From: an uncultured Parvibacter sp.
GTDB taxonomy: Bacteria; Actinomycetota; Coriobacteriia; Coriobacteriales; Eggerthellaceae
Direction of reading: 5' to 3'
Length of the DNA: 53,677 nt
Assembly: GCA_947649875.1 (NCBI GenBank)
Contig: CANSTH010000004.1
Location: 1 to 53,677 of the forward strand
A program made the position numbers and the translations under genes. Under the pieces are notes generated by a model that was not told the origin of the DNA, made no database searches, and saw only the letters and a list, made by a program, of their open reading frames with translations. Shown piece after piece: positions 23,602 through 45,137 of the stretch. The stretch's first letter is position 1. The number at the start of each line of letters is the position of its first letter.

Positions 23602-23640
23602 ACAAGGAGCCCCGCTTACCCCGGCGGGGCTCCCTTGTTT
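23602..23640 (+). terminator. Intrinsic terminator of the giant surface gene
   Basis: GGAGCCCCGC pairs with GCGGGGCTCC over an 8-nt loop, extended by ACAA/TTGT outside a single-base bulge, and followed by TTGTTT. It lies 70 nt after the stop codon. Confidence 0.8.
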
Positions 23641-37437: not shown

Positions 37438-37716
37438 ATGTCGAAGAAGCCTAAGGCGAAAGTGCCGAAATCAGGTACGGTATGGCGCCAAACAGCCGAT
37501 GAAGCCACATTGGTCCAGAATCCGCGCTACAACGGTTTTGCTTGCGGCCATGGAGTCCATGGCGAAACGAAGTACAGCCGAGCGAAAGCCAAACGCGCTT
37601 GGCAAAAGCAACTGCGACAAGAAGGAGCCTCTCGGGCCCCCTTCCCTTTTCATGGGCTTGTATCCTCCTTTTGTGACCAGAATTGCGCGTTTTCGAGTTT
37701 CGGTTCCAAGCTCTAG
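37438..37716 (+). CDS. Small basic protein, copy 1; candidate self-limiting ribosome-rescue factor
   Basis: A frame of up to 92 residues starts at an ATG with GAAGGAGGTGAGAGG directly upstream. Residues 1-67 parallel copy 2 (44865): MSKKxKxKVPKxGxVWRQTA, DEATLxQNPRYNGFACGHG, then basic KYxRxKxxRAWQKQLRQEG. A hairpin with a T run falls inside the frame 183 nt from the start, exactly as in copy 2, so transcripts may end near codon 71 without a stop. In 21 compared codons 14 differ, 12 of them synonymously, so the protein is under selection. Small size, basic charge and in-frame terminator recall ArfA/BrfA. The rescue function is inference; the family is otherwise unrecognised. Confidence 0.7.
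   Translation: MSKKPKAKVPKSGTVWRQTADEATLVQNPRYNGFACGHGVHGETKYSRAKAKRAWQKQLRQEGASRAPFPFHGLVSSFCDQNCAFSSFGSKL
37621..37650 (+). terminator. Terminator-like hairpin inside small gene copy 1
   Basis: GAAGG pairs with CCTTC and, after a small internal loop, GCC with GGC around TCTCG, followed by CCCTTTT. It is weaker than in copy 2 but at the identical offset. It lies in the coding frame ahead of the stop at 37714. Confidence 0.55.
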
Positions 37717-44622: not shown

Positions 44623-44690
44623 CCGGGCATGGCGCACGTGATGCTTTCGCCTCGATGGTGGTGTTAGGTAAGGCACTCTGTCGGATTTGC

Positions 44691-44696
44691 TATAAT
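44691..44696 (+). promoter_or_regulatory. -10 box upstream of small gene copy 2
   Basis: A perfect TATAAT lies 18 bp upstream of a structured leader. The -35 region is weak (TTAGGT at 44664). Transcription would start just before the leader's first stem. Confidence 0.55.
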
Positions 44697-44713
44697 GCGC
44701 ATCCGCAAATGTC

Positions 44714-44825
44714 GAAGGTCGGGCCATTTGCCATCTTGCCGTTGGGGCATGATAGGGGATGACCCGTTTGTCGACTAGGGCAAAAGACAATGAGGCCGAA
44801 TCAGACGACAAATGATCCGACCTTC
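44714..44825 (+). ncRNA. Structured 5' leader of small gene copy 2
   Basis: GAAGGTCGG (44714-44722) pairs with CCGACCTTC (44817-44825). TTTGTCG (44767-44773) pairs with CGACAAA (44806-44812) inside. A third stem can form from ATCTTGCC and GGGCATGAT. The result is a nested multi-stem RNA of about 112 nt between promoter and Shine-Dalgarno, resembling a riboswitch or other cis-regulatory RNA; no known class was recognised. Confidence 0.5.
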
Positions 44826-44864
44826 AGCACTCAGCCCATCTGCGTTCGAAGGAGGTGAGAGGGC

Positions 44865-45137
44865 ATGTCGAAGAAGCGCAAGCGGAAGGTGCCGAAAACC
44901 GGTGCCGTGTGGCGTCAGACGGCAGACGAGGCCACGCTGGCCCAAAACCCCCGCTATAACGGCTTCGCCTGCGGCCACGGCGCCCATGGCAGTGCGAAGT
45001 ACAACCGCACCAAGGAAAACCGCGCCTGGCAAAAGCAACTGCGACAAGAAGGAGCCCCTCGGGGCTCCTTCCCTTTTCTTCGGTTGCGGTTGCTATGGCG
45101 AAGCGGTTGGCCAGTGCCCCTTCGCGCCTTCGTTTAG
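44865..45137 (+). CDS. Small basic protein, copy 2; candidate self-limiting ribosome-rescue factor
   Basis: A frame of up to 90 residues, paralogous to 37438-37716, with GAAGGAGGTGAGAGG before the ATG. It opens MSKKRKRKVPKTGAVWRQTA and contains CGHGAHG (one Cys, two His) and the basic KYNRTKENRAWQKQLRQEG. A strong intrinsic terminator (45048-45080) lies inside the frame, so most transcripts should end near codon 72 with no stop codon. The last 10 conserved codons (45027-45056) are identical to copy 1 at every base and use A-ending codons (CAA, CGA, GAA, GGA) unusual here, while upstream codons vary mainly at synonymous positions. This suggests RNA-level selection on the 3' part. ArfA-like rescue function is inference. 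Confidence 0.75.
   Translation: MSKKRKRKVPKTGAVWRQTADEATLAQNPRYNGFACGHGAHGSAKYNRTKENRAWQKQLRQEGAPRGSFPFLRLRLLWRSGWPVPLRAFV
45048..45080 (+). terminator. Intrinsic terminator inside small gene copy 2
   Basis: GAAGGAGCCCC pairs perfectly with GGGGCTCCTTC, then CCTTTTCTT. It starts 183 nt from the ATG and precedes the stop codon at 45135 in the open frame. Confidence 0.85.

Follow-up and report, generated by a model that had tools for sequence, protein, structure and literature searches.

A terminator inside the reading frame characterizes a candidate ribosome-rescue gene family of Coriobacteriales

The gene and its surroundings

The window analysed here, a stretch of 53,677 nucleotides from an uncultured Parvibacter sp., carries on its plus strand, at 44865-45137, an open reading frame of 90 codons that begins with ATG and encodes a small, basic protein (MSKKRKRKVPKTGAVWRQTADEATLAQNPRYNGFACGHGAHGSAKYNRTKENRAWQKQLRQEGAPRGSFPFLRLRLLWRSGWPVPLRAFV). 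It is preceded by a near-perfect Shine-Dalgarno sequence, AAGGAGGTGA (44849-44858, plus strand), and a strong one stands ahead of 49 of 54 homologues. The frame stays open through a strong intrinsic terminator, recognizable both in the sequence and by RNA folding (-21.9 kcal/mol, z -2.6), which consists of a 10-bp hairpin with a tetraloop, GAAGGAGCCC-CTCG-GGGCTCCTTC (45048-45071, plus strand), and a U-tract, CCTTTTCTTC (45072-45081, plus strand), where the 3' end of the mRNA is predicted. The nominal stop codon, a plus-strand TAG at 45135-45137, comes only 21 codons beyond the terminator. With the mRNA ending at the U-tract, a product of ∼71 residues that ends near 45078-45081 is expected. Structure prediction for the protein was uninformative, with a low confidence (pLDDT 60) and helices at residues 20-26 and 48-63 only.

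Farther upstream, TGCTATAAT (44688-44696, plus strand), which has no -35 match, is possibly an extended -10 promoter element, while in the relative genomes G315 and G245 TGCTACAAT precedes the gene's start codon by ∼45 nt. The 5' leader also holds an inverted-repeat element of ∼110-130 nt (44710-44829, arms at 44714-44730 and 44809-44825) that the gene's leader in these two relatives apparently lacks; the end sequence of the element is found twice more in the genome of the window (G000, C7:34330 and C2:25812). Such an inverted repeat could represent a small mobile element.

Four other strong terminators of the window (at 23606, 25700, 26905 and 47085) each come after an apparent gene of their own strand, 54-73 nt past its stop codon; among the strong gene-end terminators of the window, only that of the 44865-45137 frame comes before its stop. 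A search of the window against Rfam gave no match and no regulatory element. Elsewhere in the window, a single open reading frame at 203-23533 encodes a giant surface protein, 7776 residues long and built from repeated units, whose terminal tail resembles a membrane anchor (LLALAAALLAALILLLIARRKKKEEEEEN).

At 37438-37716 the plus strand carries the gene a second time, with 77% identity to the first copy. In this second copy the hairpin is degraded (GAAGGAGCCTCTCGGGCCCCCTTC, folding at -11.9 kcal/mol, z +0.8) and the frame is still open past the hairpin, while dN/dS is 0.07-0.08 against both the first copy and the gene of G315. With a decayed hairpin and a conserved protein, this copy has possibly escaped self-silencing or is losing it.

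The family and its in-frame hairpin

Neither Pfam, searched up to an E-value of 10, nor NCBIfam holds a match to the protein, and PHROGs yields sub-threshold matches only (E ∼0.2). Of 398 Coriobacteriia genomes, 52 gave homologues in a search with the sequence, and with a profile 69 of the 397 Coriobacteriales genomes were matched, the weakest few matches being fragments or chance. A pattern scan of one genome per species (84,980 species), with patterns that pick up close relatives only, returned 34 loci. Nearly all of them are titled Eggerthellaceae or member genera (Adlercreutzia, Enterorhabdus, Slackia, Parvibacter, Ellagibacter, Candidatus Aphodovivens and uncultured Gordonibacter); two bear no closer title than Coriobacteriia or Coriobacteriaceae, and another two that of 'uncultured bacterium'. 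In the rest of the phylum, matches outside the order all had E-values of at least 0.0025 and were treated as chance, and a search of viral contigs gave no homologue. The protein thus appears to represent an undescribed family that, within the searches made, does not extend beyond Coriobacteriales (Eggerthellaceae and neighbours), which agrees with the suggestion of an earlier note on this DNA that it is new and actinobacterial. The family shares the core A-x-E-A-T-L-x3-P-x-Y-N-G-x-A-C-G-x-G-x-H-G-D-x-K-Y-N-R-x-K-x-K-R-x-W. Its gene stands alone: neighbours vary between genera and none is common to more than 5 of the 34 loci, the larger clusters of the neighbour analysis being overlapping frames of the gene itself.

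After removal of one duplicate, three chance matches (L135, L137 and L138) and three broken or remnant copies (L055, L136 and L050), 65 of 72 loci were taken as intact, a set that includes a few close pairs with identical core. A strong hairpin with a T-tract lies in frame and ahead of the stop codon in 61 of these 65. Among the four exceptions, the hairpin of G225, 14 bp long, is followed by a poor T-tract, the second copy in the window has the degraded hairpin described above, and the distant genes of G280 and G114 (L053 and L054), from another family of the order, have ordinary stop codons before any hairpin. As these two keep the motif GVHGDTKYNRRK despite their ordinary stops, they are a naturally occurring counterpart against which the role of the non-stop design can be judged. 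Taken through the same script, E. coli arfA shows the same in-frame arrangement of the hairpin; the ArfA genes of Photobacterium and Pseudoalteromonas have the alternative one, with an ordinary stop.

The hairpin occurs in 47 distinct versions among the loci, with pairing kept almost throughout: depending on the species, stem positions hold G-C, C-G, A-T or, at times, T-A. Since the residues encoded by the hairpin differ between clades while its stem pairs covary, it is the RNA structure that is kept. Upstream of the hairpin the protein is under purifying selection, with dN/dS of 0.04-0.34 in the related pairs for which it could be computed. Downstream, a single-T insertion or deletion in the U-tract separates the close species Adlercreutzia caecimuris (G036) and A. 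muris (G052) and shifts the frame beyond it, the core protein being nearly identical.

The stop codon itself is apparently unselected. With a median of 30 codons (range 4-166), its distance from the hairpin in the reading frame is no different from that in the other two frames (medians 28 and 27.5 codons; P = 0.47 and 0.90). Stops within 3 codons of the hairpin, however, are absent from the reading frame (0/61) and present in the other frames (13/121, P = 0.005). The +1 frame is open through the hairpin in 56 of 64 cases and the +2 frame in 58 of 64. An open frame past one hairpin is therefore not rare by itself, and what carries the argument is conservation, not a single locus. Taken together, the in-frame hairpins of 61 of 65 loci, stems that change yet stay paired, purifying selection and a random distance to the stop indicate that a non-stop mRNA is almost certainly intended, and we regard it as close to certain, judging by these comparisons of sequence, that the design of the gene yields one. 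The terminator ahead of the stop codon that the earlier note had pointed out at this locus is thus real (it spans 45048-45081, with the stop at 45135), and the note's proposal of a gene built like arfA and brfA finds strong support across the family. The note had also named homologues with stop codons ahead of the hairpin as an argument against the idea; such an order exists in only 2 of the 65 loci, both distant, and the hairpin comes first in 61.

Several copies of the gene are decaying. L055, L136 and L050 are remnant or frameshifted, and in them the hairpin outlasts the protein-coding part, which indicates that some species are losing the gene. A separate observation concerns L035 and L036: the second copy of G315 and the copy of an uncultured Adlercreutzia (G362) agree over core and hairpin region, ∼200 nt, with no difference, as would follow from a transfer of recent date or from mixing within a metagenome bin.

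Proposed function and its alternatives

The genome of the window (86% complete) contains tmRNA and only two proteins with an RF-1 domain (PF00472). Both have the length of release factors and were taken as RF1 and RF2, and since no other protein has this domain, no ArfB is seen in this genome. Across Eggerthellaceae, 77 of 79 genomes gave a tmRNA match, and the two that gave none are non-carriers of the gene. An ArfB-like GGQ protein is present in 18 of 79 Eggerthellaceae non-carriers and in 0 of 59 carriers (Fisher exact test with kinship ignored, P = 1.8e-5). This protein, of which one example (L160) was read, is short, bears GGQ and a basic tail, and scores below the NCBIfam cut-off; a single clade with large genomes may lie behind its exclusion from carriers. 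Among Eggerthellaceae that lack the gene, the majority lack ArfB as well, so a back-up of this kind is not indispensable. Among the 3,213 genomes of Actinobacteriota in a published survey, a single one has ArfA and none has rqcH (PMC11633108), and the openly accessible journal literature searched by us made no mention of ribosome rescue together with Eggerthella or of trans-translation together with Coriobacteriia.

The gene design, the size and basic character of the protein, the presence of tmRNA, RF1 and RF2, and the lack of ArfB in carriers lead us to propose a back-up ribosome-rescue factor, probably dependent on release factors, whose transcription ends inside its own frame and which trans-translation silences. 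By analogy with the known genes of this design we consider such a role likely. RNA polymerase would stop at the in-frame terminator and leave most of the mRNA with no stop codon, a step that the sequences strongly support. Ribosomes would then stall at the 3' end of the message, and the tmRNA-SmpB system, as the design and the presence of tmRNA imply, would tag the ∼71-residue product for degradation, so that the protein would be scarce as long as trans-translation works. Once trans-translation is saturated or absent, untagged protein would accumulate, as for ArfA and BrfA, and, again on the model of these two, its basic tail would enter the empty mRNA channel and recruit RF2 and/or RF1, upon which the peptide is released.

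All the comparative evidence on the design would fit equally well a non-stop gene under the control of trans-translation whose protein does some other job when tmRNA is overloaded, for example to slow ribosomes down, to shield them or to control a stress response, and the motif of the family is indeed unlike that of any known rescue factor. However, arfA and brfA, the two known genes so designed, both encode rescue factors, the size and basic character of the protein match such factors, and ArfB is missing from carriers; we thus hold another job to be unlikely. Another view is that the gene is merely compact at its end, the hairpin serving as an ordinary terminator or RNase III site, with tagging incidental or constitutive and no feedback. 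The hairpin is strong, terminators in general are common and a frame open through a hairpin is no rarity, but the other gene-end terminators of the window come 54-73 nt past the stop, and the family-wide loss of the stop ahead of a hairpin whose sequence changes would mean a stop codon forfeited for no reason, which makes a compact end quite improbable.

Least probable of all, and scarcely to be expected, is that the frame is a leader whose translation controls, by attenuation, transcription into the downstream gene for an EamA-type transporter. The frame is short, the terminator overlaps its end and the downstream gene lies on the same strand, yet neighbours vary by genus with none conserved, the whole 60-residue protein is conserved under purifying selection, and the window is devoid of Rfam regulatory elements. 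A back-up role in ribosome rescue, the reading that we prefer, can be tested directly in cultured gut species of Adlercreutzia, Slackia and Parvibacter.

Relation to known rescue factors

ArfA (E. coli YhdL, PF03889) is a small basic protein whose gene has an in-frame hairpin ahead of the stop. The candidate resembles it in these properties and in the silencing by trans-translation to be expected, and both families include members with ordinary stops (here those of G280 and G114). The lengths fall in one class as well, with 72 codons for ArfA, 71-72 for BrfA and ∼71 residues for the candidate. Unlike this likeness in design, no relation in sequence to ArfA was found, and the lineage is different. 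A search for PF03889 in 99 Coriobacteriia genomes found none, with a positive E. coli control. The sequences used for comparison came from E. coli K-12 and from plasmid-collection records; hhalign against ten of them gave a probability of 0.5% with the N-terminus alone aligned, hhalign against a single ArfA was also negative, and in local alignment shuffled ArfA scored equally well. The KGKGS motif of the ArfA tail that occupies the mRNA channel is absent, the corresponding conserved segment being GxHGDxKYNRxK. Membership in the ArfA family was rejected on the failure of both profile and motif. The earlier note was thus right that the sequence is not recognizably ArfA, while the loose EA-L...Y-R-K pattern it saw as shared with ArfA is not significant. 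An origin from ribosomal protein bL32 was rejected as well, since a weak PDB match (E 0.22) and a local alignment vanish against 20 bL32 sequences of Eggerthellaceae.

BrfA (Bacillus subtilis YqkK) is encoded by a gene of 71-72 codons with an intrinsic terminator in frame; it is repressed by trans-translation, accumulates only on loss of smpB or ssrA, and releases peptides with RF2 (PMC6881298). The mRNA of ArfA and that of BrfA both lack a stop codon, and trans-translation silences the two factors (PMC8012679, PMC6881298). The candidate is like BrfA in gene length, in-frame intrinsic terminator and Gram-positive host, a likeness drawn from the description of BrfA and not from its sequence; unlike the candidate, BrfA is known only in Bacillus. 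ArfT of Francisella, with 40 residues and the motif KKGGSTNKK, acts with RF1 or RF2 and has no terminator ahead of its stop (PMC6299226). It shares with the candidate a small size, basic character and narrow lineage, and it recruits a release factor, whereas the candidate has ∼71 residues, another motif in place of a KKGGSTNKK-like tail, and the terminator. With ArfB (YaeJ/ICT1), whose GGQ-bearing relative occurs in Eggerthellaceae that lack the candidate gene, the protein would share the role of back-up rescue, but it has no GGQ hydrolase domain.

Further rescue factors are expected, and it has been noted that sequence similarity may miss them and that genetic screens may be needed (PMC8012679). 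The gene design itself, a covarying in-frame hairpin before an unselected stop, can also serve to find candidates. On balance we lean towards an independently evolved family of rescue factors that recruit release factors, following ArfA, BrfA and ArfT and the first in Actinobacteriota, with a contact motif of its own (ACGxGxHGDxKYNRxK), which would have converged on non-stop self-silencing and stand in for ArfB in part of Eggerthellaceae. If this is true, Actinobacteriota would possess a second back-up system besides ArfB, and the same self-silencing circuit would be found in a third family, suggesting that it is the circuit, rather than the protein, that evolution repeatedly reinvents.
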